DNA of 64,000 nucleotides from Serratia liquefaciens (GTDB taxonomy: Bacteria; Pseudomonadota; Gammaproteobacteria; Enterobacterales; Enterobacteriaceae), in contig JAAXZN010000041.1 in assembly GCA_012719855.1 (NCBI GenBank), positions 1 through 64,000 of the forward strand. Direction: 5' to 3'. Under the pieces are notes generated by a model that saw only the letters and a list, made by a program, of their open reading frames with translations, ran no database searches and was not told where the DNA came from. Shown one piece after another: positions 11,478-45,061 of the stretch. Position numbers and translations under genes: made by a program. How positions within the stretch are numbered: the first letter of the stretch is position 1; the number at the start of each line of letters is the position of its first letter.

Positions 11478-12527
11478 ATGTTATATCAACTGAGCGTGAT
11501 ATTTATTTTGGCGCTGGTGCTGGTGGTTATTGCCCGCCGCGCCGCGTTGGCGGTGGGGTTAGTGGATAAACCCAATGCGCGCAAGCGTCATCAGGGGCAT
11601 GTTCCGCTGGTTGGCGGGATTGTCATTTACCTCGTGATGACGCTGGTGACCTTTTGGCAGCCCGAATGGTTGCCGCACAGTACCACCTACTTGCTGAGCA
11701 TTACGGCGCTGGTGTTGCTGGGCGTTCTGGATGACCGCTTTGATCTGCCGGTGACGCCACGCGTCATCGTGCAGGGAGGGATTGCGCTGGCGATGATGCT
11801 GGCGGCAGGGATGCAACTCACTTCTTTGGGTTACCTGTGGGGTCATCAGGAACTGCAGCTGGGTTACGCGGCCTTGTTGATCACGCCGTTGGCGGTGTGG
11901 GGGGCGATCAACGCCTATAACATGGTTGACGGCATCGACGGCCAACTGGGCGCGCTGTCCTGCGTCACGTTTATGGCGCTGGCCATCCTGTTCGGGCTGG
12001 CCGGGCATGAAGAGCAGGCGTTGTGGTGTCTGAGCCTGATTGCGGCGCTGGCAGCCTACCTGCTGTTTAACCTCAGCGTATTCGGTGCGCGCAACAAGAT
12101 TTTCATGGGGGATGCCGGCAGCATGGTGATTGGGTTTAGCGTGCTGTGGTTGCTGATTGCCGCCACGCAGGGCGAAGACGCTGTGATGCGACCGGTGACC
12201 GCACTGTGGCTGATTGCCATTCCGCTGATGGACATGGTGACGGTGATGACGCGTCGTTTGCTGCGTCGACAGAGTCCCTTTAAGGCTGGGCGCGATCACC
12301 TGCATCATATTCTGATGCGCCGTGGCCTTAATGCACGCCAGGCGCTGAGCATGAGCTGCATGTTGGCGGTGACGCTGGCCTGCGTCGGCATCTGCAGCGA
12401 AGTGCTGCAACTGCCCGATCACCTGATGCTGCTGGCCTTTGTATTTTGTTTCTTCGGTTATTTTGTCCTGCTGCACGAACCCCGTCAGGCCAGAGTTTTT
12501 ACCGATAACCCTACCGCCGATCGTTAA
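11478..12527 (+). CDS. WecA-like undecaprenyl-phosphate sugar-1-phosphate transferase
   Basis: This polytopic inner-membrane enzyme (349 residues, about ten or eleven hydrophobic segments) starts polysaccharide repeat assembly by moving a HexNAc-1-phosphate from a UDP sugar to undecaprenyl phosphate. Family motifs are present: D85-D86 in LGVLDDRFDLP, NAYNMVDGIDG (D151, D154), FMGDAGSMVIGF and the RDHLHHILMRRG loop. It resembles WecA/WbpL rather than the WbaP/WcaJ type, so the initiating sugar is probably an N-acetylated hexosamine. It is the first gene after the ops site and has a good GGAGG ribosome site. A strong terminator directly follows. It is presumably a second copy beside the enterobacterial-common-antigen WecA, which I cannot see here. 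Confidence 0.87.
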   Translation: MLYQLSVIFILALVLVVIARRAALAVGLVDKPNARKRHQGHVPLVGGIVIYLVMTLVTFWQPEWLPHSTTYLLSITALVLLGVLDDRFDLPVTPRVIVQGGIALAMMLAAGMQLTSLGYLWGHQELQLGYAALLITPLAVWGAINAYNMVDGIDGQLGALSCVTFMALAILFGLAGHEEQALWCLSLIAALAAYLLFNLSVFGARNKIFMGDAGSMVIGFSVLWLLIAATQGEDAVMRPVTALWLIAIPLMDMVTVMTRRLLRRQSPFKAGRDHLHHILMRRGLNARQALSMSCMLAVTLACVGICSEVLQLPDHLMLLAFVFCFFGYFVLLHEPRQARVFTDNPTADR

Positions 12528-12534
12528 TCCTCCC

Positions 12535-12560
12535 ACGGGCCGCAACGGCGGCCCGTTTTT
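12535..12560 (+). terminator. Strong intra-operon terminator between the wecA-like gene and wza
   Basis: ACGGGCCGC (12535-12543) pairs perfectly with GCGGCCCGT (12548-12556) around an AACG loop, followed by a run of T to 12560. It lies eight bases after the transferase stop and ends just before the wza start. With the ops site upstream, it looks like a checkpoint that RfaH-modified polymerase can pass and unmodified polymerase cannot. Confidence 0.88.
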
Positions 12561-12572
12561 CACGGTACCGTT

Positions 12573-13706
12573 ATGAACCTTCATTTGCCTCATTTGATGC
12601 CACTGGTGCTGTCCAGCGTTTTGCTCAGTGGTTGCACCGCTTTTCCGGGTTCACACCTGCCGACCCATGGCAAAGACACAGTGACTCAACAAGACGACGA
12701 TTTCGATCTGGATAAACAGGTTCAGGTGTATCGCGTCACGCCGATGTTGCTGGAAAAAATGCGTCGCATAGAGCCGGTAGCGCGCCCCAACCTGGCGTTG
12801 GATCAGCGGTTGCAAAGCTATCAGTACCGCATCGGCGTTGGCGACGTGCTCAACGTTACCGTCTGGGATCACCCGGAGCTGACCACCCCGGCAGGGCAAT
12901 ACCGCAGCGCCAGCGATACCGGCAACTGGGTGCATGCCGATGGCGCCATCTTCTATCCGTACATCGGCAGGGTGCAGGTGGTGGGCAAAACCGTTACCGA
13001 AGTGCGCAACCAGATTGCCAGCCGCCTGGCAACCTATGTGGAAAGCCCACAGGTGGACGTCAGCATCGCCGCCTTCCGTTCACAAAAGGTGTATGTCACC
13101 GGGGAAGTGAAAACCTCTGGGCAGCAGGCCGTGACCAACGTACCGCTGACCATTCTGGATGCGATCAACGCCGCCGGCGGGCTGACCGATAACGCCGACT
13201 GGCGCAACGTGGTACTGACGCACCAGGGCAAAGAACAGCCGATTTCGCTGCAGGCGCTGATGCAGCGCGGCGACATCAGCCAAAACCACCTGCTGACGCC
13301 TGGCGACATCCTCTATGTGCCGCGCAACGACGAACTGAAAGTGTTTGTGATGGGCGAAGTCGGCAAGCAGTCGACGCTGAAAATGGACCGCAGTGGCATG
13401 ACGCTGACCGAAGCCCTGGGCAGTTCCGAAGGGATCAGCCAGACGGTGGCCGATGCTACCGGGGTGTTCGTGATCCGCCCGAACGGCGGCAAGCAGCCAA
13501 AACGGCTGGCGTCGCTGTACCAGTTTGACCTGTCTGATGCCGCCGCACTGGCGATGGGCACCGAATTCCAGCTGGAGCCTTACGACGTGGTGTACGTCAC
13601 CGCGGCACCGATCGCACGCTGGAACCGCTTGATTAGCCAGTTGGTACCGACCATTTCCAGCTTCAACGACCTCAGTGAGGCCACGTTGCGGGTACGTAAC
13701 TGGTAA
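12573..13706 (+). CDS. wza: Wza-type outer-membrane polysaccharide export lipoprotein
   Basis: Wza forms the octameric outer-membrane channel that exports capsular or exopolysaccharide. The 377-residue protein has a lipoprotein signal with lipobox LLSGC (acylated C21), a poly_export domain ([20 protein letters not shown]) and SLBB-type domains ([15 protein letters not shown] and [15 protein letters not shown]). The C-terminal amphipathic helix region matches the channel-forming end of Wza. The ribosome site is weak, and the gene begins 12 bases after a strong terminator, so its expression probably depends on readthrough. Wzc follows directly; the Wzb phosphatase gene that usually lies between them is missing. 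Confidence 0.92.
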
Positions 13707-33387: not shown

Positions 33388-33402
33388 TTCCTCGCCTACA
33401 TA

Positions 33403-33434
33403 GCGGCAATGCCTGCCAGGTGTTGTCGCTTTTC
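33403..33434 (+). terminator. Probable terminator of narGHJI
   Basis: GCGGCAA (33403-33409) can pair with TTGTCGC (33423-33429) with one G-U pair, and CCT/AGG extend the stem inside. TTTT follows. It lies 16 bases after the narI stop. Confidence 0.55.
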
Positions 33435-33709
33435 TGCTTCTCCGTGGTTTTCCGCCTATTCTTAATTTATCTCCCCTGAGTGAGTTCCTGTAGATCTCCG
33501 TTCGACCTTGCTCTAGGCTGTGGCCGGATAAACAGACGTGATTTATCGGCTCAGTTAAATGAACGGAATCAATCAGTAAGAATGCCACTTGGGTTTTTCT
33601 TTATGCTGATGTCAAACAAGGGTATGGCTGAGGATAGCGGGGTTTGAATCATTAACCGCGCTTGATAGTTGGCCAACGGAATAATGGACAAGCAGGCTGA
33701 ACAACGATA
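33435..33709. other. Intergenic region upstream of the lipid operon
   Basis: This region must hold the promoter of the eight-gene operon that follows. I see no strong -35/-10 pair, no FNR or NarL site and no obvious operator. The first gene lacks a strong ribosome site; the bases before its ATG read GAACAACGATA. Confidence 0.4.
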
Positions 33710-34717
33710 ATGACCCTAAATAGCCTTTCCCAAAGCTTATTGCCTCTTAAAATTATTGCGACCGGCGCGGCGTTGCCGCCGCAGTGCGTCGAATCCTCGG
33801 CGCTGGACCGTCGCTTGAACAAGTCGGCCGGTTACGTAGAAAAACGTTCGGGTATTATTCATCGTTTCCATGCCGACAATGATGCCAGTCAGGCCGAATT
33901 GGCCGTTGCCGCGCTGGACGATGCTCTTGCCCGCCATGCGATCCCGCGAGACTCCATCGATCTGCTTATCTCCGCTTCGGCCATCGCGGTGCAGGCGTTG
34001 CCTTTCAGCGCCGCGCATATTCTAAAACTGGCCCGACTGCGGCCGGGAATCGCGGGCTTTGATATCAACACCAGCTGCGTCAGTTTTATCTCCGCGCTGC
34101 AGGTGGCGGCAGGGTTGCTCAATACGGGCGTTTATCGGCGCATTGCTATTGTCTCTGCCGATATCGCTTCGCGCGGTATCGACTGGGAGGATGAAGAGTC
34201 TTCATTGATCTTCGGTGATGGTGCGGCCTGCGCTATTGTCGAGCAAGGTGACGGGCGTAGCGGCATTTTGTCCTACCTGATGGAAACCCACCCGGAAGGC
34301 AGCGAGTTTTGTGAGATCAGAGCCGGCGGTACGCGCCGTAATCCGCGTGCCGGCATGAATGACAGTGACTTTCTGTTCCATATGAAGGGCAAGCAGCTGT
34401 TCCGCCAGGCTTCGGCGCTGATCGAAAGCTTCCTTGGCCGTTTGCTGTCGGCTGCGGGGCTGAACCTGGCGCAAATTGCTACCGTGGTGCCGCATCAGGC
34501 CAGCCATCTCTCTTTGGAGCATATGCGCAAGCGGCTGCATGTTTCCCCGCAGGCCCTGGTGGATATCTATCGTTACCGGGGCAATCAGGTGGCGGCTTCC
34601 ATCCCTTCGACCCTGCACCAAGCGGCAATAACCGGCAGGTTGAACGCCGAACGTCCGGTGATGCTGATCGGCACCGCCGCCGGTTTGACGCTGGGCGGCA
34701 TGGTACTGCTGCCATGA
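33710..34717 (+). CDS. FabH/OleA-like beta-ketoacyl synthase III
   Basis: This 335-residue thiolase-superfamily enzyme carries the KAS III triad: C123 in FDINTSCVSFI, H262 in VVPHQASHLSLEHM and N292 in RGNQVAASIP. The 30-residue His-Asn spacing matches FabH. KAS III enzymes join an acyl thioester to a malonyl-ACP or, in the OleA branch, to a second acyl-CoA. The OleD-like reductase encoded next makes the OleA-type head-to-head condensation an attractive reading, but I do not see decisive OleA-specific residues, and a FabH-like or acyltransferase role remains possible. It is the first of eight overlapping genes. Confidence 0.82.
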   Translation: MTLNSLSQSLLPLKIIATGAALPPQCVESSALDRRLNKSAGYVEKRSGIIHRFHADNDASQAELAVAALDDALARHAIPRDSIDLLISASAIAVQALPFSAAHILKLARLRPGIAGFDINTSCVSFISALQVAAGLLNTGVYRRIAIVSADIASRGIDWEDEESSLIFGDGAACAIVEQGDGRSGILSYLMETHPEGSEFCEIRAGGTRRNPRAGMNDSDFLFHMKGKQLFRQASALIESFLGRLLSAAGLNLAQIATVVPHQASHLSLEHMRKRLHVSPQALVDIYRYRGNQVAASIPSTLHQAAITGRLNAERPVMLIGTAAGLTLGGMVLLP

Positions 34718-35730
34718 AGGTGCTGGTGACCGGAGCGACCAGCGGGCTGGGGCGCAACGCCGCCGAGTGGCTGTTGGCCGCCGGGCATCAGGTGCATGCC
34801 ACCGGACGGGATATTGCCGCGGGGCGGCAGTTGGCGGCACTGGGCGCCAGGTTTACCGCGCTGGACCTGACCGTGGCCGGGGACGAGCAGTGTGAGCAAT
34901 TAATCGCGGGCCATGACATCGTCTGGCACTGTGCCGCAAAATCTTCACCCTGGGGCAGCCGCGAGGCGTTTGATCAGGCCAATAGCCGCGTGACGGAAAA
35001 ACTCGCCGGCGCCGCCGGACGTTGCGGGGTTCAGCGGTTTATCCATATTTCGACGCCGGCGGTTTATTTCGATTTCAGCCACCGCCACAACGTCACCGAG
35101 GCGGATATTTCCCGACGCTTTGCCAATCATTATGCCGCCAGCAAGTTTGCTGCCGAACAGAGCATTGCGGCGGAGGTGTCCGCCTTTCCGCACACCACCT
35201 ACCTGATCTTGCGCCCTCGCGGCCTGTTCGGTCCCCATGACCGGGTCATCGTGCCAAGGATACTGGCGCAGCTGCGGCGCGATAAAGGCGTGCTGCGTTT
35301 GCCGGGCGGCGGTTCCGCTTATCTGGATCTCACCTTTGTGCTCAACGTGGTGCATGCGATGGATCTGGCAAGCCGTCAACCAGGTTTACCGTCCGGCAGC
35401 ATTTTCAATATCACCAACCAACAGCCGCAGCGGCTGGCCGATATGTTGCACCAACTGCTCAACCGGCAGTTGGGCTGGCAATACGCCGTCAAGGCGGTGC
35501 CATATCCCTTATTGTCGGGCGTTGCTACGGGGATGGAGCTGTTGGCCCACGTCACCCGCAAAGAACCGATGCTGACCCGCTATAGCGTTGCGGCGGCCTA
35601 TTTCGACATGACGCTGGATAACACCCAGGCGATAGAGGTGCTGGGTTATCGGCCGCGCTACAGTCTGGAGCAGGGGATCGAACTGACGGCGCAGTGGTTA
35701 AAGCAGCAGGGGATGAGCGCAGATGGCTAA
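34714..35730 (+). CDS. OleD-like NAD(P)-dependent reductase (extended SDR)
   Basis: This 338-residue extended short-chain dehydrogenase resembles the 3-beta-hydroxysteroid dehydrogenase/OleD group. Its Rossmann motif is LVTGATSGLGRNAAEWLL; other group-typical stretches are HCAAKSSPWGS, HISTPAVYF, the catalytic YAASK, LRPRGLFGPHD and the C-terminal LDNTQAIEVLGYRPRYS. OleD reduces a 2-alkyl-3-keto acid to the hydroxy acid in long-chain olefin synthesis. Here it follows the KAS III gene with an ATGA overlap, as expected if it reduces that enzyme's keto product. The substrate is inference. Confidence 0.8.
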   Translation: MKVLVTGATSGLGRNAAEWLLAAGHQVHATGRDIAAGRQLAALGARFTALDLTVAGDEQCEQLIAGHDIVWHCAAKSSPWGSREAFDQANSRVTEKLAGAAGRCGVQRFIHISTPAVYFDFSHRHNVTEADISRRFANHYAASKFAAEQSIAAEVSAFPHTTYLILRPRGLFGPHDRVIVPRILAQLRRDKGVLRLPGGGSAYLDLTFVLNVVHAMDLASRQPGLPSGSIFNITNQQPQRLADMLHQLLNRQLGWQYAVKAVPYPLLSGVATGMELLAHVTRKEPMLTRYSVAAAYFDMTLDNTQAIEVLGYRPRYSLEQGIELTAQWLKQQGMSADG

Positions 35731-36529
35731 CATCATGACGTTTGAAATCGGTTATTGCACTCATCTGGGCTGCATGGCGCTGCGCGGTTCGGCGATGCGC
35801 ACCTGTAAATTTCCTTCCCGGGCCTATCTGCTGGAAGTCGGCGAGCGCCGCTGGCTGTGGGATACCGGTTATGCCAGCCATTTTGAGCATTACACCGCCA
35901 GCGGCATTTTTCGGCTTTATCGCCAGGTGACGCCGGTTTATTTCAGCCCGCAGCAGGCCCTGTTGGAACAGTTGCGCAGTCTGGGGCTGAACACTGGCGA
36001 TATCGAGGCGGTGATCATTTCGCACTTTCATGCGGACCACATTGCCGGTCTGCGAGACTTCAGCAGCCTGAAGATGATTTGCTCCGGCGAAGGGTGGCAG
36101 CAAACCCGAGAGCTGCGCGGTTTTGCCGCGTTGAAAAGGGCATTTGTGCCCGGATTGATTCCGGAAGGTTTTGAATCTGCGCTGCAGTTCGTCGAGGGAT
36201 TTCCGCTGCAAAGCCTGCCTGCCGCATTGGCCCCTTTCCAACAGGGCTATGTGCTGCCGGGCAGCGGCGGAGAAATTGTTATCGTGCCGCTGCCAGGGCA
36301 CGCCGCCGGGCACCTTGGGGCCTTTGTGCTGACCGATGCCGGCTGGACGCTGCTGGCCAGCGATGCCGCCTGGTCGCCGCTGAACTATCAGCAACTGCGT
36401 GGCCCTTCGCGGTTGGCTAACCTGATCATGGACAATCCGCGCAGCTATTACGACACCCTGGGCGCGCTCAACCAGCTCTATCTTGGCGGCGCTGCGGAGA
36501 TCCGCCTGTGTCATGAGGGGGATTTATGA
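35723..36529 (+). CDS. Metallo-beta-lactamase-fold hydrolase
   Basis: This 268-residue protein has the metal site of the MBL superfamily: H101-x-H103-x-D105-H106 in ISHFHADHIAGL, H193 in PLPGHAAGHLGAF and D214 in LLASDAAWSP. The layout is closest to lactonase- or thioesterase-like members such as AHL lactonases, which open lactone or ester bonds. In this operon it could hydrolyse a thioester or lactone intermediate; no OleB-type alpha/beta hydrolase is present. It overlaps the preceding gene by eight bases and the next by four. Confidence 0.83.
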   Translation: MANIMTFEIGYCTHLGCMALRGSAMRTCKFPSRAYLLEVGERRWLWDTGYASHFEHYTASGIFRLYRQVTPVYFSPQQALLEQLRSLGLNTGDIEAVIISHFHADHIAGLRDFSSLKMICSGEGWQQTRELRGFAALKRAFVPGLIPEGFESALQFVEGFPLQSLPAALAPFQQGYVLPGSGGEIVIVPLPGHAAGHLGAFVLTDAGWTLLASDAAWSPLNYQQLRGPSRLANLIMDNPRSYYDTLGALNQLYLGGAAEIRLCHEGDL

Positions 36530-37812
36530 TCCCGCTGATGACGCTATGGCACTACCTGCGTGCGCGGCGACTGAGCTTTACCCAACGGGCGGCGCTGGAG
36601 GCCTATCAGGCGCGCCAACTGAAGCGGTTTGCCCGGCGCATATTGGCGAGCAGTCCCTATTTTCAACCCTATAGTGCATTGCCCCTGACCGAGTGGCCAA
36701 CGATGGACAAGGCGGTGATGATGGCCAATTTCGATCGGATGAACACCGCCGGTCTGCGATTGGAGGAGCTTTTGGCCTGTGCCCGGCGCAGCGAAAGCGA
36801 TCGCGATTTCAGCCCCAAAGTGGGCAACTACAGCGTCGGCTTATCTACCGGCACCTCTGGGCGGCGCGGCGTGTTTGTCGTCAGCCCCCAGGAGCAGCAG
36901 ATTTGGGCTGGAGGCATGCTGGCAAAAATGTTGCCGCAGGGGGTATTTGCCGGGGAGAAGGTCGCGCTGTTCCTGCGGGCCGACAACAACCTGTACCACA
37001 GCGTCAATAACCGTTGGCTGAGCCTGTCGTTTTACGATCTGTTTGCTCCCTTTGCCGAACATTTGCCGCAGATTGAGCGTGAACAGCCGACGATTATCGT
37101 GGCCCCGGCCCAGGTGTTGTGCGCCCTGGCGGATGCCGTTGAACGCGGCGAACTCAAGCTCAGCGTCAAAAAAGTGATTTCAGTGGCCGAAGTGCTGGAA
37201 CCGCAGGATCGCCAACGTTTACAACGGGTGTTTGCGCAGGTGGGGGAAGTGTATCAGGCCACCGAAGGTTTTTTGGCCGCGACCTGCAGCCACGGCACTT
37301 TGCATCTGAACGAAGAGTTTATTCATGTCGAACCTCAGTGGATCGACGAACGGCGTTTTACCCCGTTGATTACCGATTTTACCCGCCGTACCCAACCGAT
37401 AGTGCGCTATCGCCTGGACGATATTCTGGTGAAGCGCGAACAACCCTGTCCCTGCGGGCAGGCGACCATGGCATTGGATCGTATCGAAGGGCGCTGTGAT
37501 GACCAACTGCTGTTGCCGGCCAGCCAGGGCGCAACGCAACAGGTCTTCGCCGACCTGTGCCGCCGCGTGATAGCCAATGCGTTGCCGGCGGTGGCGGATT
37601 ACCGGCTGACGCAGCAGGGCGGCAGTGAGCTGTATCTGACGGCCGATTGCAACCCGGAGGCGTTGGCGAGCTGCCAACGGCAATTGATCGCGCTGTTCGA
37701 ACAGCAAGGTATTGCCACGGAGCAACTGGTGTGGCACCCGCAAACGCAGGCGATCATGCCGCAGTTCGATGCCAAGCGCCGCCGCATTGTTCGCCTGCCG
37801 GAGGCCGGATGA
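36526..37812 (+). CDS. PaaK/F390-synthetase-like adenylate-forming enzyme
   Basis: This 428-residue protein resembles the coenzyme F390 synthetase/PaaK branch of adenylate-forming enzymes. Visible features are the phosphate-loop-like VGLSTGTSGRRGVFVVS, a motif YQATEGFLAATCSHGTLHLNEE in two adjacent halves, and the PIVRYRLDDI stretch containing the conserved aspartate. Such enzymes activate a carboxylic acid as an acyl-adenylate. It is clearly shorter than OleC or FAAL-type ligases. In this operon it probably activates the beta-hydroxy or fatty acid made by the earlier enzymes. A cofactor F420/F390 role is unlikely in an enterobacterium. It overlaps neighbours on both sides (ATGA). Confidence 0.78.
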   Translation: MIPLMTLWHYLRARRLSFTQRAALEAYQARQLKRFARRILASSPYFQPYSALPLTEWPTMDKAVMMANFDRMNTAGLRLEELLACARRSESDRDFSPKVGNYSVGLSTGTSGRRGVFVVSPQEQQIWAGGMLAKMLPQGVFAGEKVALFLRADNNLYHSVNNRWLSLSFYDLFAPFAEHLPQIEREQPTIIVAPAQVLCALADAVERGELKLSVKKVISVAEVLEPQDRQRLQRVFAQVGEVYQATEGFLAATCSHGTLHLNEEFIHVEPQWIDERRFTPLITDFTRRTQPIVRYRLDDILVKREQPCPCGQATMALDRIEGRCDDQLLLPASQGATQQVFADLCRRVIANALPAVADYRLTQQGGSELYLTADCNPEALASCQRQLIALFEQQGIATEQLVWHPQTQAIMPQFDAKRRRIVRLPEAG

Positions 37813-38426
37813 AAATCGTTGTTTATCGCCTGTGGCAGATGTTGCTGGGGTGGGGATTTGTCGGGGTTATCTACCACGGCAGCGATCGTTGGCAAGGTGC
37901 CGGCCACTTGCTGACGCCCGGCTGGGTTGACCGGGCGATCCCGTTCAGCCCGCATGCCATCTGGCTGTATCTGTCGTTTTTCCTGATTATCCCGCTGTGC
38001 TATCTGCTTTGTCCGTTGAACCGGCTAAAATGGCTCAGAACTACCATGCAGCTCAGCGCCTTGCTGGCGGGCGCCATTTATCTGCTGTGGCCGACGACGA
38101 TGGACTATCCGCGCGTTCAGCCGGGTTCGGTGAGTGCTGATTTGCTGGCGGCGCTGATCGGCGTTGATTCGTCGCAAAACTGCCTGCCTTCACTGCATAT
38201 CGCCTTGACGGTATTGGCGGTGTGGGCGGCGGCGGAAAGCCATAAAAAACTGCGCAGCGCGTTGCTGATCGTCTGGGGGCTGGCGATTGCATTTTCCATC
38301 TTGCAACTGCGTCGCCACCTGTTTGTGGATTTGCTCCGTGGGGCGGCGTTGGCGTGGGGCGTGGGCTACGTCTGCCAGCGAGTTCAATGGATTGGCTGGG
38401 GCGTACGGCAGGGGGAAGAGTCATGA
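37809..38426 (+). CDS. PAP2/IPC-synthase-like membrane phosphatase or phosphotransferase
   Basis: This 205-residue protein has about five or six hydrophobic segments and the two C-terminal motifs of the PAP2 superfamily: CLPSLHIALTV (the PSGH-like motif) and LRRHLFVDLLRG (the SRxxxxxHxxxD-like motif with His and Asp). The sequence style fits the inositolphosphorylceramide-synthase-like PAP2_3 group, which move or remove lipid head groups. It starts with an ATGA overlap. In this operon it could dephosphorylate a lipid or attach a phospho-head group to the product. Confidence 0.75.
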   Translation: MKIVVYRLWQMLLGWGFVGVIYHGSDRWQGAGHLLTPGWVDRAIPFSPHAIWLYLSFFLIIPLCYLLCPLNRLKWLRTTMQLSALLAGAIYLLWPTTMDYPRVQPGSVSADLLAALIGVDSSQNCLPSLHIALTVLAVWAAAESHKKLRSALLIVWGLAIAFSILQLRRHLFVDLLRGAALAWGVGYVCQRVQWIGWGVRQGEES

Positions 38427-39541
38427 TCGATCTGGTGATACCTATCGTGTTTATGCTGTTGGTGGTGCTGGGGGAAGCCCTGTGGCTGCAGTGGCGGCGC
38501 AAGGGCAGCGTCGATTGGCATGACGTGATTTTCAACCTCAACTCCGGGCATATCATGCTGTGGCTGTTTCGCGGTTTGGAAATCGCCTGCTACGGCTACG
38601 TGGTCACGCATTTCAATCAGGGCTGGCTGGACGGTTGGCCGCCGGTGCTGATGTGGATGTTTGCAATTCTGGCCTGGGATTTCGGTTTTTACTGGCTGCA
38701 CCGGTTACACCACCGTTTCCGCCTGCTGTGGGCGGTGCATGTGGTGCATCACCAGGGCGAGCATTTCAATCTGTCACTGGGCGTACGCAACTCGTGGTAT
38801 TCGTCACTGACCTCCATCCCGTTCTTTATGCTGTTGGCGTTGGCGGGCGTGCCGCTGTCGGTGTTTATCACCGTTTCTATCCTGCATTACAGCATTCAGC
38901 TGTTTAACCATAATTCGGTGACCCCAAAACTCGGCTTTCTGGAGCATATCCTGGTGACGCCGGCGCATCACCGGGTGCACCACGTTAAAGACCTGGCCTA
39001 TTCCAACCGGAATTTCGGCGGCAGCTTTATCTTCTGGGACAAGCTGTTTGGCACCTTTTGCCCGGTGCTGCCGACGGAGCCTTTTACCTACGGCGTGCGT
39101 GGCGACAAATCTTCCGCCAATCCGTTTTGGGCCAGTAACCTGCCGTTTATGCGCTATTTCAAGCTGCCTTTCCAACCTTCGACCCAGAGCGGGCGTTTCC
39201 GCTGTTCCGCCGGGTGCCTGGTGAGCGGGGCCATGCTGCTGTTTGCTCTGGTGCTGGGCTATGTTTATCGTTTTGGTTACGGCTATGACGGGGTGACCGG
39301 CGAGCAGGCGGCGTTGTTTGTGCTGTTGGCGACCGGGGCGATCGCCTTGGGAGGGATGGCTGAAGGTCGTCGCTGGGGCGTAGGCGTTTGGCTGTTGGTG
39401 ACGTTGGCTTTCCCCCTGTGGTTATTGAAAGTGCCCGATGGGCAGTCCGTATTCTGGTGGAGCCTGGCCGGTGTCATTGTGGTTCACGGTTGCGCTGTCG
39501 CGGCCGGCTGGGGACGCCAAAAAGAGGCCGCGTATGGCTGA
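38423..39541 (+). CDS. Sterol-desaturase/fatty-acid-hydroxylase family membrane di-iron enzyme
   Basis: This 372-residue membrane protein has the eight-histidine pattern of the fatty acid hydroxylase superfamily: WLHRLHHRF, HVVHHQGEHFN, LFNHNS and TPAHHRVHHVKDLAYS. These enzymes use a di-iron centre and oxygen to hydroxylate or desaturate lipids. Extra hydrophobic segments at about 265-370 follow the catalytic region. It overlaps the PAP2 gene (ATGA) and the first desaturase gene by eight bases. The substrate is presumably the lipid made by this operon. Confidence 0.85.
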   Translation: MIDLVIPIVFMLLVVLGEALWLQWRRKGSVDWHDVIFNLNSGHIMLWLFRGLEIACYGYVVTHFNQGWLDGWPPVLMWMFAILAWDFGFYWLHRLHHRFRLLWAVHVVHHQGEHFNLSLGVRNSWYSSLTSIPFFMLLALAGVPLSVFITVSILHYSIQLFNHNSVTPKLGFLEHILVTPAHHRVHHVKDLAYSNRNFGGSFIFWDKLFGTFCPVLPTEPFTYGVRGDKSSANPFWASNLPFMRYFKLPFQPSTQSGRFRCSAGCLVSGAMLLFALVLGYVYRFGYGYDGVTGEQAALFVLLATGAIALGGMAEGRRWGVGVWLLVTLAFPLWLLKVPDGQSVFWWSLAGVIVVHGCAVAAGWGRQKEAAYG

Positions 39542-40625
39542 TTTGCCGCCGCTGAGTTTTCCCGCAGAGGGGGAACAGGCGTTTCATCGGGAATTGAAAC
39601 GACGGGCGCATGCTTACCTGAGCGGTCGCGACGATCACCGTTTTGCCGATGCGGCCCGTTGGGCCAAGGCCACGATTTTACTGCTGCTTTGCGTGGGCTT
39701 CTACCTGCTCAGTTTGATGCAGCACCGGCCTTTGGCCTTTATGCTGTGTTACTTCGTTTTTGTCATGATGGGCATGTTGCTGAACGTCAACGTTAATCAC
39801 GATGCTTCACACAACGCCTTCGCCCGCACGCCGTGGGTCAATCGTCTGGTCGGGCGGCTGGTGACTCTGCCGCTGGGCGTCGATCCGGATTACTGGCGAA
39901 CCCGGCACGTCAGCTATCACCATGTGTATGCCAACGTCGAACATTACGATCTGGATACGGAAGAGAACGGTTTCTTTCGCCAAACCCCGTTTCAGCGCTG
40001 GCGAGCCTATATGCGCTATCAGCACCTTTACTGGCCGCTGATTGCCGCGCTGTCACTGCCGTACATTGCGCTGGTGTTCGATTGGTCGGATCGCTTGGGC
40101 AAGACGCCGCTGGCGGCGAAGGGCGTATTGCCCGGACGCAAGGGCTGGGCGGTGTTCATTGCCGGGAAAATAGCTCATCTGTTGCTGGTGCTGGCGATCC
40201 CTTTGGTGGTGGGGCAACAAAATGGCATCGGCTGGCCAACGGTGCTGGCCGCCTATCTGCTGAGCCAAATGCTGGCCTCGCTGTGGGTGGTGTTTTTGCT
40301 GTTGGGGACCCACTGGGCGCAGGCTGAATTTTATGCGGTTCCGGCAGGCGGCCAGATGCCGCAGGGGTGGTATCGGCATAACTTCGCCACCGCCTGCGAT
40401 TGGGAAACCTCGCCGAAGTGGCTGCACCATCTGACCGGCGGGCTGAATTATCACCTGACCCACCATTTGTTCCCCGGCTGGAATCATCGTCATTATCCGG
40501 CGCTGGCCGCCATACTGGCGGAGGTGGCAGCAAGTCACAACATGGATTATCGCTGCATCGGCTATCGTGAATTATTGCGACAGCAGCAACGTTTTTTACG
40601 CGCCATGGGGCAACCACCGCAATGA
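39534..40625 (+). CDS. Membrane fatty acid desaturase 1
   Basis: This 363-residue acyl-lipid/acyl-CoA desaturase has the three histidine boxes HDASHNAF, RHVSYHHVYAN and HLTHHLFPGWNHRHYP plus four or so membrane segments, and would introduce a double bond with oxygen and an electron donor. It is clearly a paralogue of the next gene: the N-terminal YLxxRxDHRFAD, the box regions and the QTPFQR and GRKGW stretches align along the full length. No ferredoxin, rubredoxin or reductase gene is in the operon, so electrons must come from elsewhere. Confidence 0.9.
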   Translation: MADLPPLSFPAEGEQAFHRELKRRAHAYLSGRDDHRFADAARWAKATILLLLCVGFYLLSLMQHRPLAFMLCYFVFVMMGMLLNVNVNHDASHNAFARTPWVNRLVGRLVTLPLGVDPDYWRTRHVSYHHVYANVEHYDLDTEENGFFRQTPFQRWRAYMRYQHLYWPLIAALSLPYIALVFDWSDRLGKTPLAAKGVLPGRKGWAVFIAGKIAHLLLVLAIPLVVGQQNGIGWPTVLAAYLLSQMLASLWVVFLLLGTHWAQAEFYAVPAGGQMPQGWYRHNFATACDWETSPKWLHHLTGGLNYHLTHHLFPGWNHRHYPALAAILAEVAASHNMDYRCIGYRELLRQQQRFLRAMGQPPQ

Positions 40626-41728
40626 AAATGCCGGACACCACACCGCTAGCGCCCTTGGCGTTCCAGCGAGAGGCGAGTGAGATCCATCAGGACCTGATGC
40701 GGGCCAGTCAGGCCTATCTGGCGACGCGCGGCGATCACCGTTTTGCCGACGGCAGAATGTTTGCCAAGCTGTTGGCGCTAATACTGTTGTGCGCCGGTTT
40801 TTACGCGCTGAGCCTGCAGCAGCAACATTTCTGGGCCCACTTTGGCTGCTATGTCGGCTTTATTTTTTCCGCCATGATGCTGACGATCAATGTGGTGCAC
40901 GACGCCTCGCATAATGCCGTTTTCAAACGCGCACGGTTGAATCACTGGCTTAACTTTTTCGTCAGTATGCCCTTGGGGCTGGATGCCGACTGTTGGCGGG
41001 TGCGGCACGTCATCTTCCACCATGCCTATAACAATATCGAAGGTTACGATCCGGATATTGAACCTAACGGCGTATTGCGGCAAACGCCGTTCCAGCGTCG
41101 CAAGGCATTTATGCGCCTGCAACCCTACTATTGGCCGATCGTCGCGGCGCTGACTTTCCCTTATTACATCTGGTTGTTCGACTGGCTGGATCGCGCCGGT
41201 AAAACGCGTATGACGCCGAAGATGATGTTCCAGGGCCGGAAGGGGTGGGGGATTTTCCTGTTGGGCAAGCTGGCGCATTTTACCCTGGCGCTGGCCATTC
41301 CTCTGTGGCTGATGCCGCCGGCGGTCAGTGCCGGAATGGTGTTACTGACCTATCTGCTCAGCCAGATGCTGTCGTCACTGGTGTTTGTGATGCTGATTGT
41401 CGGCACCCACTGGGCCAAGGCCAACTTTTATCAGGCCCCCGAACAGGGACGGCTGGCGCACGGTTGGTACCAGCACGTTTTTGCCACCACCTTTGACTGG
41501 CAAGCTTCTCCGGCGTGGCTGGGCTATTGGCTTGGCGGGGCTAACCTGCACCTGACGCACCATCTGTTTCCCCATTGGAATCACCGACACTACCCGGCGC
41601 TGGCGAAGATCATTGCCGAGGTGGCCGCGCAGCACGGCCTGGATTATCAATGCCTCAGTCTGAAAAGGTTACTGGGCATGCAGCAACGTTTTCTCGGGGC
41701 AATGGGGCGTAAGCCATCTGATCGTTGA
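40622..41728 (+). CDS. Membrane fatty acid desaturase 2 (tandem paralogue)
   Basis: This 368-residue desaturase has boxes HDASHNAV, RHVIFHHAYNN and HLTHHLFPHWNHRHYP. It begins inside the stop of desaturase 1 (ATGA) and is the last gene of the operon. The two paralogues probably act at different positions of the same chain or one after the other, as in polyunsaturated or acetylenic lipid pathways; this is inference. The end is followed by a 118-base gap with no clear terminator. Confidence 0.9.
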   Translation: MKMPDTTPLAPLAFQREASEIHQDLMRASQAYLATRGDHRFADGRMFAKLLALILLCAGFYALSLQQQHFWAHFGCYVGFIFSAMMLTINVVHDASHNAVFKRARLNHWLNFFVSMPLGLDADCWRVRHVIFHHAYNNIEGYDPDIEPNGVLRQTPFQRRKAFMRLQPYYWPIVAALTFPYYIWLFDWLDRAGKTRMTPKMMFQGRKGWGIFLLGKLAHFTLALAIPLWLMPPAVSAGMVLLTYLLSQMLSSLVFVMLIVGTHWAKANFYQAPEQGRLAHGWYQHVFATTFDWQASPAWLGYWLGGANLHLTHHLFPHWNHRHYPALAKIIAEVAAQHGLDYQCLSLKRLLGMQQRFLGAMGRKPSDR

Positions 41729-41846: not shown

Positions 41847-42071
41847 ATGCGCAGTTTGCCGATCCGTTTATCCAATAAAATTGATGACGATCTGAATGAT
41901 ATAGCCCGGCGCCATGGGATGGAGAAAACCGAGGTGATCAAGATGGCCTTTGCGTTGATAGCCATAGCCGATAAGCACTGGATGAAACAGAACGGGACGT
42001 CCCTTGGCATAGTGCGGGAGAATGGCAAAGAGCTGGAGGCCGTGGGGCAAGTCGTGGGGATCTTCCCTTGA
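41847..42071 (+). CDS. Small ribbon-helix-helix-like protein
   Basis: This 74-residue protein starts with LPIRLSNKIDDDLNDIARRHGMEKTEVIKMAFALIA when read in two parts, a pattern like CopG/Arc-type ribbon-helix-helix domains: a short strand and then two amphipathic helices. The C-terminal 25 residues are not recognisable. It has a strong CAGGAGGTG ribosome site. The stop overlaps the TTG start of the next gene, so the pair is coupled. It could be a DNA-binding autoregulator or antitoxin-like partner of the small membrane protein; I do not recognise the pair. Confidence 0.6.
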   Translation: MRSLPIRLSNKIDDDLNDIARRHGMEKTEVIKMAFALIAIADKHWMKQNGTSLGIVRENGKELEAVGQVVGIFP

Positions 42072-42334
42072 GTATCGAAGACACCAATCTACGCGATGAA
42101 GCCGGTAGGGTTTATCTGGAGCAGATGTTGGTCTTTGATGAAATGGAACGTTTGCGCTTGGCGCGCCAGGTGCTGTGCGGGATCTTCGTGATAAGCGTGG
42201 GGTTTTTTGCCGCCCACGCTTATTGGGATCAAAGCGAGCCTATCAGGCAAGTGTTCGAGCTGTTGAAAATTGGTGCGCTGCCCTTGGTCACGCTGGTTAT
42301 TTCCTTCTACTTCCCCAACACCTCGGCCAGATAG
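42068..42334 (+). CDS. Small two-helix membrane protein of unknown function
   Basis: This 88-residue protein has an acidic, charged N-terminal region of about 35 residues and two hydrophobic segments (about 36-51 VLCGIFVISVGFFAAH and 66-82 LLKIGALPLVTLVISFY). The TTG start overlaps the TGA stop of the preceding gene. Its end stops nine bases before the end of the convergent DUF2474 gene. I do not recognise the family. Confidence 0.55.
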   Translation: MSIEDTNLRDEAGRVYLEQMLVFDEMERLRLARQVLCGIFVISVGFFAAHAYWDQSEPIRQVFELLKIGALPLVTLVISFYFPNTSAR

Positions 42335-42342
42335 CGCTCAGG

Positions 42343-42506: not shown

Positions 42507-43514
42507 TCAATGGTAACCCTGCTCATGGCTGACCTTGCCGCGGACCACGTAGTAGCTCCAGAAGGTGTAGACCAAAATAATCGGGATGATAAACAGCGCG
42601 CCGACCAGCATAAAGCCCAGGCTTTGCGGCGGTGCGGCGGCGTCCCACAGGGTGATGGACGGTGGGATCAGCAGCGGCCAGATGCTGATGCCCAAGCCGC
42701 TCAGGCCGAGGAACACCAGCAGCAGGGTCAGCAAGAACGGCGAATAGTGCGCCGCGTTGTTCACGCCACGCTGGATCCCCCAGGCGCTGAGCAACACCAG
42801 CACCGGAACCGGCAGCAGCCAGAACAGGTTCGGCAGCGTAAACCAGCGGCTGGCGATCTCGGGATGGGCAATCGGCGTCCAGATACTGACCACCGCCAAC
42901 ACCAGCAGCAAAGTGACCAGCAGCGGCGTCGCCAACCGATACATGCGAGCCTGCAGGTCACCGGCGGTCTTCATTACCAGCCAGGTACAGCCCAGCAGTG
43001 CATAGGTCACCACCAGCCCCAACCCACAGAACAGCGCGAACGGCGTCAGCCAGTCAAGGGCTCCTCCGGCATAGCTGCGGCCGTTGACCGGGAAGCCGTT
43101 GATGATGGCGCCCACTACCACCCCCTGACTGAAGGTGGCGAACAGAGATCCCCAGATAAACGCCTTATCCCAGATATGCCGCTTTTCTTCCTTGGCCTTG
43201 AAGCGGAATTCAAAGGCCACGCCGCGGAAAATCAGCCCGAAAAGCATCAGGGTGAGCGGAATGGCCAGCGCATCGAGGATCACCGCGTAGGCCAACGGGA
43301 AGGCACCAAACAGCGCCGCACCGCCCAGCACCAGCCAGGTTTCGTTACCGTCCCAAACCGGTGCGACGGTGTTCATCATCACATCGCGGTCACCGCTGTC
43401 CTTGACCCAGGGGAACAGAATACCGATACCCAAATCAAAGCCGTCCATTACCACGTACATCATGGTGCTGAACACGATGATCACAAACCAAATCAACGGA
43501 AGATCAATACCCAT
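42507..43514 (-). CDS. cioB: Cytochrome bd-type (cyanide-insensitive) quinol oxidase subunit II
   Basis: This 335-residue protein with eight or nine hydrophobic segments is CydB/CioB family: the N-terminal IWFVIIVFSTMMYVVMDGFDLGIGIL (read in two parts) and the NTVAPVWDGNETWLVLGGAALFGAFP block are diagnostic. It pairs with subunit I to oxidise quinol and reduce oxygen without pumping protons. It starts two bases after cioA ends and is followed by the DUF2474 gene. Confidence 0.93.
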   Translation of the reverse strand: MGIDLPLIWFVIIVFSTMMYVVMDGFDLGIGILFPWVKDSGDRDVMMNTVAPVWDGNETWLVLGGAALFGAFPLAYAVILDALAIPLTLMLFGLIFRGVAFEFRFKAKEEKRHIWDKAFIWGSLFATFSQGVVVGAIINGFPVNGRSYAGGALDWLTPFALFCGLGLVVTYALLGCTWLVMKTAGDLQARMYRLATPLLVTLLLVLAVVSIWTPIAHPEIASRWFTLPNLFWLLPVPVLVLLSAWGIQRGVNNAAHYSPFLLTLLLVFLGLSGLGISIWPLLIPPSITLWDAAAPPQSLGFMLVGALFIIPIILVYTFWSYYVVRGKVSHEQGYH

Positions 43515-43516
43515 GC

Positions 43517-44917
43517 TCAGCTCCTGTCATCCAGAGTTTCTTTTACCGCAGACAGCGGGCGAGCCGGTCTGCCGTCCGTGTCGTCTTCATGGCTTTCATG
43601 CTGCTGCGGTCCTTTGCGGATCAGACGCATCATGTAGGAGTACCCCACGCCGAACACCGAACAGTAAACGATGATAAACGCCAGCAGGCTGATGCTCATG
43701 TGCAGGTCACCGTGCGCGGAAACCGCATCTTTGGTGCGCAGCAGACCATAGACCACCCACGGCTGTCGGCCGATTTCGGTGGTGAACCAACCCGCCAGCA
43801 GCGCCACCAACCCGGATGGCCCCATCCACAGGATGAAGTACAGGAAGGGGCGGGACTGGTACAGCCCGCCGCGCCAGCGCAGCCACAGGCTCCAAACCCC
43901 GGCGAGGATCATCAGCATGCCCAGCGCCACCATGATGCGGAACGACCAGAACACCACGGTGGAGTTGGGGCGATCCTCCGGCGGGAAGGATTTCAGCGCC
44001 GGGACCTGTTCGGTCAGGCTGTGAGTCAGGATCAGGCTGCCAAGATAGGGCACTTCCAGCTTGAAGCGAGTCTCTTCACGCGCCATGTCCGGCCAACCGA
44101 ACAGGATCAGCGGCGTCGCCTCTCCCGGCGGGTTTTCCCAGTGGCCTTCAATGGCGGCAATCTTCGCCGGCTGGTACTTCAGCGTATTCAGGCCGTGCGC
44201 ATCACCAATCAGGGCTTGTACCGGCGCGACGATCAGCGCCATCCACATCGCCATCGACAGCATTTTGCGCATTGCCGGTGTGTCACGCCCACGCAGCAGA
44301 TGCCAGGCGGCGGAAGCGCCCACGAAGAAGGCCGAAGACAGGAAAGCGGCGGTCGACATGTGCAACAGACGGTACGGGAATGACGGGTTGAATATCACTT
44401 TCAGCCAGTCGACCGGTACCACCTGGCCGTTGATGATTTCGTGGCCCTGCGGCGTTTGCATCCAGCTGTTGGACGCCAGGATCCAGAAGGTGGAAATCAG
44501 GGTGCCCAGTGCCACCATGCAGGTCGCGAAGAAGTGCAACCCTGGGCCGACGCGGTTCCAACCGAACAACATCACCCCAAGGAAGCCTGCCTCCAGGAAG
44601 AAGGCGGTCAGCACTTCATAGGTCAGCAACGGGCCGGTGATACTGCCGGCGAACTCGGAGAAGAAGCTCCAGTTAGTGCCGAACTGATAGGCCATTACCA
44701 GCCCCGAAACCACCCCCATGCCGAAGTTGACGGCAAAAATTTTCGACCAGAAATGGTACAAGTCGCGATAGGCTTCATTGCGTGTTTTCAGCCATAGCCC
44801 TTCCAGCACCGCCAGGTAACTGGCCAAACCTATGGTGATTGCAGGAAAAATAATATGGAAAGAAACGGTGAAGGCGAACTGTATTCTGGCAAGTTCCAGT
44901 GCATCAAGACCCAGCAT
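43517..44917 (-). CDS. cioA: Cytochrome bd-type (cyanide-insensitive) quinol oxidase subunit I
   Basis: This 466-residue protein carries the haems of the bd oxidase. Diagnostic parts are LARIQFAFTVSFHIIFPAITIG, the ETRFKLEVPYLGSLI quinol-loop region and TTEIGRQPWVVYGLLRT. The Q loop looks short and GLLRT after GRQPW fits the CioA rather than the long-loop E. coli CydA type, suggesting low-sensitivity-to-cyanide oxidase; that property is inferred from family. I chose the ATG at 44917, preceded by AAGGAGG. Upstream is a divergent control region shared with a MocR-type regulator. Confidence 0.93.
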   Translation of the reverse strand: MLGLDALELARIQFAFTVSFHIIFPAITIGLASYLAVLEGLWLKTRNEAYRDLYHFWSKIFAVNFGMGVVSGLVMAYQFGTNWSFFSEFAGSITGPLLTYEVLTAFFLEAGFLGVMLFGWNRVGPGLHFFATCMVALGTLISTFWILASNSWMQTPQGHEIINGQVVPVDWLKVIFNPSFPYRLLHMSTAAFLSSAFFVGASAAWHLLRGRDTPAMRKMLSMAMWMALIVAPVQALIGDAHGLNTLKYQPAKIAAIEGHWENPPGEATPLILFGWPDMAREETRFKLEVPYLGSLILTHSLTEQVPALKSFPPEDRPNSTVVFWSFRIMVALGMLMILAGVWSLWLRWRGGLYQSRPFLYFILWMGPSGLVALLAGWFTTEIGRQPWVVYGLLRTKDAVSAHGDLHMSISLLAFIIVYCSVFGVGYSYMMRLIRKGPQQHESHEDDTDGRPARPLSAVKETLDDRS

Positions 44918-44981
44918 GGCGCCTCCTTGGGTTGGACATAAAATAACCTCTTCAGTATAGCTGTAATTTTTTTGTGGAAAG

Positions 44982-44993
44982 CTTGGCGCCAAG
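44982..44993. promoter_or_regulatory. 12-bp palindrome between cioA and the MocR-type gene
   Basis: CTTGGCGCCAAG is a perfect palindrome in the 144-base divergent region. A perfect -10 hexamer TATAAT lies at 45015-45020 for the rightward gene, and TATACT on the minus strand (44955-44960) could be the -10 of cioA. The palindrome sits between them and may be an operator. No experimental link is known to me. Confidence 0.45.
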
Positions 44994-45061
44994 TTAAGCA
45001 CGGAGTACAGTGACTATAATAGTGACAGTTATTTCACTTTTTCATATAACAGTTAAGGCCT

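Follow-up and report, generated by a model that had tools for sequence, protein, structure and literature searches.

The described system that comes closest in logic to the locus reported here is OleABCD, which combines a thiolase-fold condensation, a reduction by a short-chain dehydrogenase/reductase (SDR), an AMP-forming enzyme and a hydrolase. In the condensing enzyme OleA, Glu117 of the partner subunit serves as the base. Chain-interconnecting ketosynthases act in corallopyronin and myxopyronin biosynthesis, where CorB and MxnB take chains borne by polyketide synthases and make α-pyrones; the cavity of these enzymes is T-shaped and accommodates two chains (PMC4901931). Here, we analyze an operon of eight genes in Serratia liquefaciens, located on contig JAAXZN010000041.1 of assembly GCA_012719855.1 within a stretch of 64,000 nucleotides (positions 1 to 64,000 of the forward strand) referred to as the window. 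Its first four genes, the core, encode a ketosynthase of the β-ketoacyl-acyl carrier protein (ACP) synthase III type (KAS), an extended SDR, a hydrolase of the metallo-β-lactamase (MBL) fold and a PaaK/F390-synthetase-like adenylating enzyme (F390-like enzyme). The remaining four, the tail, encode a PAP2-type membrane protein, a hydroxylase and two desaturases. The operon follows the four-step logic of OleABCD, but its KAS lacks Glu117 and groups with CorB/MxnB, its SDR is not OleD, a PaaK-type enzyme takes the place of OleC and an MBL-fold enzyme that of OleB, and the tail enzymes are added. It is a real, conserved and apparently undescribed biosynthetic operon.

Conservation of the core was assessed in 80 genome loci, the best 80 of 582 confirmed matches in a species-genome collection, so that the sample leans towards near relatives. 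The genes for KAS, SDR and MBL lie close to the F390-like gene in 77 of these loci and are contiguous with it, in the same order, in 76. The exceptions are two loci in which no KAS was found (L078 and L092), one at a contig end (L093) and L087, which holds all four core genes and fails the distance rule through a long open reading frame (ORF) call. Core-bearing taxa comprise Bacillota, Fusobacteriota and alpha-, beta- and gammaproteobacteria. On plasmid records, the core genes are found together in Paracoccus, Ketogulonicigenium, Shinella, Rhizobium, Paraburkholderia and one Pseudomonas, as well as in Pontibacillus and Paenibacillus, where an ATP-grasp gene lies between KAS and SDR. A Fusobacterium record holds the core in rearranged form. 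Two Pseudomonas megaplasmids (L025 and L213) carry the F390-like gene, in L025 together with MBL, with no KAS gene annotated in the region displayed. Broken copies also occur: several genes are present as short ORFs on the E. coli plasmid pBone4_5 (L029), and the KAS gene of Pseudomonas caricapapayae and the MBL gene of a Ralstonia (L035, L084) are interrupted, through sequencing error or decay.

The genes that follow the core vary. A PAP2 gene was identified near the core in 66 of the 80 loci, a hydroxylase gene in 60 and a desaturase gene in 59; all three are present in 58, four of which additionally carry a glycosyltransferase module. In 9 of the 80 loci, a gene for a GT21 glycosyltransferase comes after that of a second OleD-like SDR; 8 of the 80 encode a second glycosyltransferase, and 8 a small protein without Pfam match in which an α/β-hydrolase-like Ser-Asp-His pattern can be seen by eye. 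One conserved example of the small protein, about 190 residues long, is encoded at 12429-12995 of locus L061, between two glycosyltransferase genes; the GT21 protein of the same locus scores 117 bits with Glyco_transf_21 and 96 bits with the HpnI model (cut-off 310). Relatives of the GT21 enzyme and of the small protein are also found in the Fusobacterium locus. Tails in Rhizobium, Shinella and a Roseateles-labelled record contain GNAT (unnamed in the Roseateles record), Rieske and ATP-grasp genes, with variants in other genomes, the Paraburkholderia tail contains ATP-grasp and GNAT genes, and the Paracoccus and Ketogulonicigenium tails contain a divergent sulfotransferase and a TetR gene. Nine loci have none of PAP2, hydroxylase, desaturase and GT21 nearby, two of which end close behind the core. 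All tail counts are lower bounds, as L083 and L085 (both scored as tail-less), L040, L069 and L094 end soon after the core. Mapping six tail labels onto a quickly built tree containing 99 F390-like proteins (94 labelled; L065, L071, L072, L094 and L110 unlabelled; L025 and L029 excluded) required 14 changes, compared with a minimum of 5 and a mean of 32.7 after shuffling. This distribution indicates that tails track kinship, yet are repeatedly gained, lost or exchanged.

The operon is also widespread in E. coli, where 672 of 5426 complete genomes give a match and 671 contain 80% or more of a seven-gene stretch; CFT073, Nissle, ATCC 25922, EC958 and NRG 857C are among the E. coli matches listed, and the Nissle match covers the entire seven-gene operon. 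In the two E. coli records examined, the operon has one desaturase gene and lies between narI and tRNA-Tyr genes. As this seven-gene counterpart occupies the same place behind narI and 76 of 80 loci have an unbroken core, the arrangement is not a product of chance. Genes resembling the annotated E. coli narH lie beside the operon in six Serratia loci, as well as in Escherichia, Leclercia and Citrobacter loci. The F390-like gene is common within the genus and patchy outside it: the TIGR02304 cut-off is exceeded in 24 of the 30 genomes sampled within the genus and in 7 of 398 drawn from the phylum, both counts including the genome analyzed here. In the F390-like tree, the row nearest to the window protein is a Serratia sequence. 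The F390-like protein of Snodgrassella alvi (Neisseriaceae, L032), whose locus has the four-gene core without the usual tail, groups with these two, which suggests transfer between distant families. Phage carriage was considered as well; however, none of the 23 pattern matches obtained by scanning viral contigs with the F390 alignment was a relative by tblastn.

KAS contains a Cys-His-Asn triad that is shared with OleA and general to KAS III enzymes. Among 85 relatives, C123 is found in 84, the remaining one having a gap, and H262 and N292 in all. Here and below, such counts refer to relatives with a match to the respective family and exclude the window and L029 with its broken reading frames; the catalytic or ligand role of each conserved position is one we assume from the enzyme families. 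At the position of OleA Glu117, the window KAS has Leu97, and its relatives have Leu (80), Ile (4) or a gap (1); all 50 rows of the KAS alignment, the window included, have Leu. In the control OleA this position is E97, assigned to Glu117 by counting with an offset of 20 residues. CorB and MxnB likewise lack the glutamate and have Val instead. With the OleA-type model PRK09258 the window KAS reaches 89.9 bits (cut-off 285), compared with 463 and 467 for two control OleA proteins. With PRK07204, 'beta-ketoacyl-ACP synthase III', it also stays below the cut-off (314 bits, 402 needed), which two Bacillota core KAS proteins pass with 445 and 425 bits.

By sequence, tree and fold, CorB and MxnB are the nearest solved relatives of KAS, and the core KAS proteins share a clade with them in both of our trees (support 99/98 and 97/93). 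The second tree, calculated without seven long-branch rows, three of them core rows, weakly supports a position of CorB/MxnB among the operon KAS proteins. In these trees the CorB and MxnB rows are incomplete chains, rows labelled 'oth' are other KAS III proteins of unknown function, and the row core_L156 represents residues 521-868 of an 868-residue ORF. The latter ORF (L156, 10054-12657) carries the core KAS at its end, behind a first part without Pfam match, and is either a fusion or a run-on. The structure model of KAS is a monomer. OleA is remote from the core KAS in the first tree. The absence of Glu117 and the missed PRK09258 cut-off argue against an OleA-type KAS; the trees alone leave kinship with OleA possible.

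The three other core enzymes are likewise conserved at key positions. In the SDR, S113, Y140 and K144 are present in 88 of 88 relatives. Its best NCBIfam match is the OleD model NF042422, with 143 bits against a cut-off of 580, which the OleD proteins of both Ole control loci (L152 and L153) pass with 641 bits each. In the SDR tree it falls outside the control OleD clade, separated by forks of moderate support (87/94 and 90/88), and a few core SDRs and OleD-like rows sit at weakly supported forks. The same genome encodes a second, stand-alone SDR (G000 contig 63, 16986-17963; L159, 8957-9985) that falls within the clade of operon SDRs; in E. coli, the matching gene bears the annotation ybjS and is present in 5373 of 5426 genomes. 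The MBL enzyme matches 4-pyridoxolactonase best (56 bits, cut-off 325), followed by acyl-homoserine lactone (AHL) lactonases. Its putative metal ligands H101, H103, D105 and H106 are found in 88 of 88 relatives and H193, D214 and H264 in 87 of 88. OleB, in contrast, is an α/β-hydrolase (control locus L152), and profile comparison of MBL with control OleB gave no match. The F390-like enzyme scores 586 bits with TIGR02304, 'F390 synthetase-related protein' (cut-off 251.9), a name that, like that of PRK07204, denotes a protein family and not a pathway. E247, D299 and K417 are conserved in 89 of 89 relatives, the AMP-binding match is weak (23 bits, cut-off 30), and PaaK chains are the nearest solved sequences. 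Comparison with control OleC yielded no match (hhalign E 0.07 over 35 columns), and no OleC model appears among the NCBIfam matches of the window proteins, while control OleC at L152 passes with 1008 bits (cut-off 900).

An earlier reading of the window from its letters alone, the first-pass annotation, had proposed an Ole-like pathway with conserved first two steps in which other protein families replace OleB and OleC. The replacement holds, with Lactamase_B and TIGR02304 proteins in the respective places, as do the parallel in four-enzyme logic and the presence of chain-modifying enzymes. Conservation of the first two steps is not supported: KAS differs at Glu117 and in its model score, and the SDR, described as OleD-like, has OleD as its best model without reaching its cut-off or its clade. 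Ole membership was rejected for SDR, hydrolase and ligase alike. Since SDR, MBL and F390-like enzyme fail the comparisons with OleD, OleB and OleC, the operon runs parallel to Ole and, on the features tested, is not a member of it. No evidence points specifically to a hydrocarbon, which had also been proposed; a long-chain product with desaturation or hydroxylation is plausible.

In the PAP2 protein of the tail, H130, H170 and D174 are present in 68 of 68 relatives; among sequences of solved structure, the closest are LpxE, AUR1 and PgpB, each matching weakly (E 0.018 to 0.11), so that both a phosphatase and a transferase role are possible. H183, H186 and H187 of the hydroxylase are found in all 62 relatives, and H182 is replaced by Asn in 11 of them. 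The two desaturases have three His boxes each and are 53% identical to each other, and therefore probably arose by tandem duplication. Sphingolipid finishing draws on the same Pfam families as the operon tails, namely GT21 (ceramide glucosyltransferase), AUR1-type PAP2_3, PF04116 (hydroxylases) and PF00487 (desaturases); the similarity of the operon PAP2 protein to AUR1 is, however, not significant (E 0.07). No amino-acid-condensing enzyme is encoded among the eight operon genes, and no search for serine palmitoyltransferase was made.

We consider it about an even call that the operon is dedicated to making a lipid or lipid-like metabolite, in which the core builds a scaffold and further enzymes finish it. 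KAS would load an acyl chain from ACP or CoA onto Cys123 and form a C-C bond with a second thioester. Because OleA's Glu117 base is missing, the second chain would probably be a β-keto chain, in the fashion of CorB/MxnB, and this kinship together with the missing glutamate suggests that two chains are joined. Judging from the enzyme families, the SDR would then reduce the β-keto group to a hydroxyl, MBL would cleave a thioester or lactone, and the PaaK-like enzyme would adenylate the free acid and pass it on, with CoA, an amine or an alcohol as acceptor. Tailoring in the membrane is suggested by the families of the PAP2 protein, hydroxylase and desaturases: the first may act on a phosphate head group, by removal or transfer, and the others may oxidise the chains. 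In other genomes, different finishing enzymes would act on the core product. The order of steps and the substrates are guesses. Several observations weigh against this scheme. KAS is only about 30% identical to CorB/MxnB, whose lead over FabH in fold comparison is small (Z difference 1-3). The second tree separates OleA from FabH and puts it on the side of the core (96/90, very long branch), and a single clade of core and OleA is not rejected (p 0.10, two OleA rows only). The PAP2 protein has no significant sequence match to solved structures (best LpxE, E 0.018), and there is no ACP gene within the operon. A broader proposal, which we regard as improbable though worth stating, is a modular class of two-chain lipids in which the core would build a ceramide-like scaffold without serine palmitoyltransferase, to be finished by interchangeable tails across at least three phyla and about one eighth of complete E. 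coli genomes; its sphingolipid-like aspect draws solely on shared enzyme families.

Other products are conceivable. A FabH-like KAS would use malonyl-ACP in a decarboxylating extension of a single acyl-CoA or acyl-ACP, SDR would give the 3-hydroxyacyl chain, MBL would release it and the PaaK-like enzyme would attach a head group, yielding a single-chain 3-hydroxy lipid. We find this somewhat unlikely but a serious contender, given that the triad is as in FabH, that Glu117 is absent, that FabH structures are nearly as close to KAS as CorB, and that a core KAS profile gives the genome's own FabH 237 bits and two true OleA 94 and 98. KAS is not itself FabH, however: it reaches 187.6 bits with TIGR00747 (cut-off 292), which 12 of 12 FabH tree rows pass, and the genome has its own FabH gene (L192, 490 bits). 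Clustering with FabH, which the first-pass annotation had named as speaking against its proposal, was not observed; KAS stands on a branch apart from the 12 FabH rows, and a clade of core and FabH without CorB/MxnB is rejected (p 0.0028, in a test picked after the tree had been seen). A diffusible signal or antibiotic-like small molecule such as an α-pyrone or lactone, opened or edited by an MBL enzyme of AHL-lactonase type, is an unlikely product. The lactonases nearest to MBL, the patchy spread and the exchanged tails would fit it, as would the α-pyrone antibiotics made by CorB/MxnB according to the accessible part of PMC4901931, a part that makes no mention of an SDR-MBL-F390 core for these enzymes. 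All four tail proteins here come from lipid-modifying families, though, and other tails contain an HpnI-related glycosyltransferase. A true Ole-type route to long-chain olefins or β-lactones, with MBL and the F390-like enzyme replacing OleB and OleC, we consider very improbable. The four identical reaction types, the best match of the SDR and the position of OleA in the second tree are consistent with it; Leu or Ile at the Glu117 position, the missed OleA-type and OleD cut-offs, the position of the SDR outside the OleD clade and the missing profile similarity to OleB and OleC argue against it.

Within the 5.46 Mb genome, assembled in 70 contigs, the window is part of contig 32. Eight ORFs on the + strand make up the operon (33710-41728), the PAP2 gene start being taken at 37809 instead of that of a longer listed ORF. 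As the first-pass annotation had stated, all seven junctions overlap by four or eight bases (4, 8, 4, 4, 4, 8 and 4 in gene order, read from the sequence). Its KAS III triad and its assignments of the MBL, F390/PaaK, PAP2-like, hydroxylase and two desaturase genes were likewise confirmed, by near-invariance among relatives and by matches to Lactamase_B, TIGR02304, PAP2_3, FA_hydroxylase and, twice, FA_desaturase.

Table 1. Coordinates and features of the S. liquefaciens operon within the window.
Feature	Position	Strand	Characteristics
KAS III-type ketosynthase	33710..34717	+	ACP_syn_III and C-terminal domain; CorB/MxnB-like clade; C123-H262-N292; Leu97
Extended SDR	34714..35730	+	Epimerase/3Beta_HSD; S113-Y140-K144; OleD-like, outside OleD clade; 4-base overlap with KAS
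MBL-fold hydrolase	35723..36529	+	Lactamase_B; lactonases nearest; 8-base overlap
PaaK/F390-synthetase-like adenylating enzyme	36526..37812	+	TIGR02304 over cut-off
PAP2_3-type membrane protein	37809..38426	+	PSLH and RRHLFVD motifs
Fatty acid/sterol hydroxylase family	38423..39541	+	FA_hydroxylase PF04116; several hydrophobic stretches
Fatty acid desaturase 1	39534..40625	+	FA_desaturase; three His boxes
Fatty acid desaturase 2	40622..41728	+	FA_desaturase; three His boxes
Gap from narI to operon	33388..33709	+	322 bases

Upstream, narH and narI pass their NCBIfam cut-offs (narI by TIGR00351), and a narJ-like gene scores 282 bits (cut-off 410). In the promoter and terminator scan, the longest terminator-like stem, of 13 pairs (33402-33430), falls in the gap between narI and the operon, where no promoter-like site reached the scan threshold; overall, the scan gave about as much as it did on shuffled sequences (10 stems found, 11.1 expected). 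Directly 3' of the operon, two small + strand ORFs can be seen by eye (41847-42335), followed by two - strand ORFs resembling cytochrome bd oxidase subunits (42507-45001).

Our searches of the open-licence literature, based on the portions of text available, recognised no description of the operon or its product. In the portions retrieved, papers mentioning 'F390 synthetase' (PMC2649909, PMC5467263, PMC9823363 and PMC5501837) deal with different loci, with degradation of aromatics or with plain lists. A screen of OleA homologues (PMC7064751) does not use the word Serratia in its text. A core shared across phyla with exchangeable tails is more striking than the parallel of the eight genes to Ole. 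The exchanged tails constitute a natural experiment, in which a single scaffold would be subjected to multiple finishing chemistries. The operon may also provide a biochemical context for YbjS, a relative of its SDR that nearly all complete E. coli genomes encode. Given that at least three phyla have kept the four-enzyme pathway together, and that E. coli strains in wide use have it too, well-studied bacteria may contain a lipid or metabolite that has gone unnoticed.

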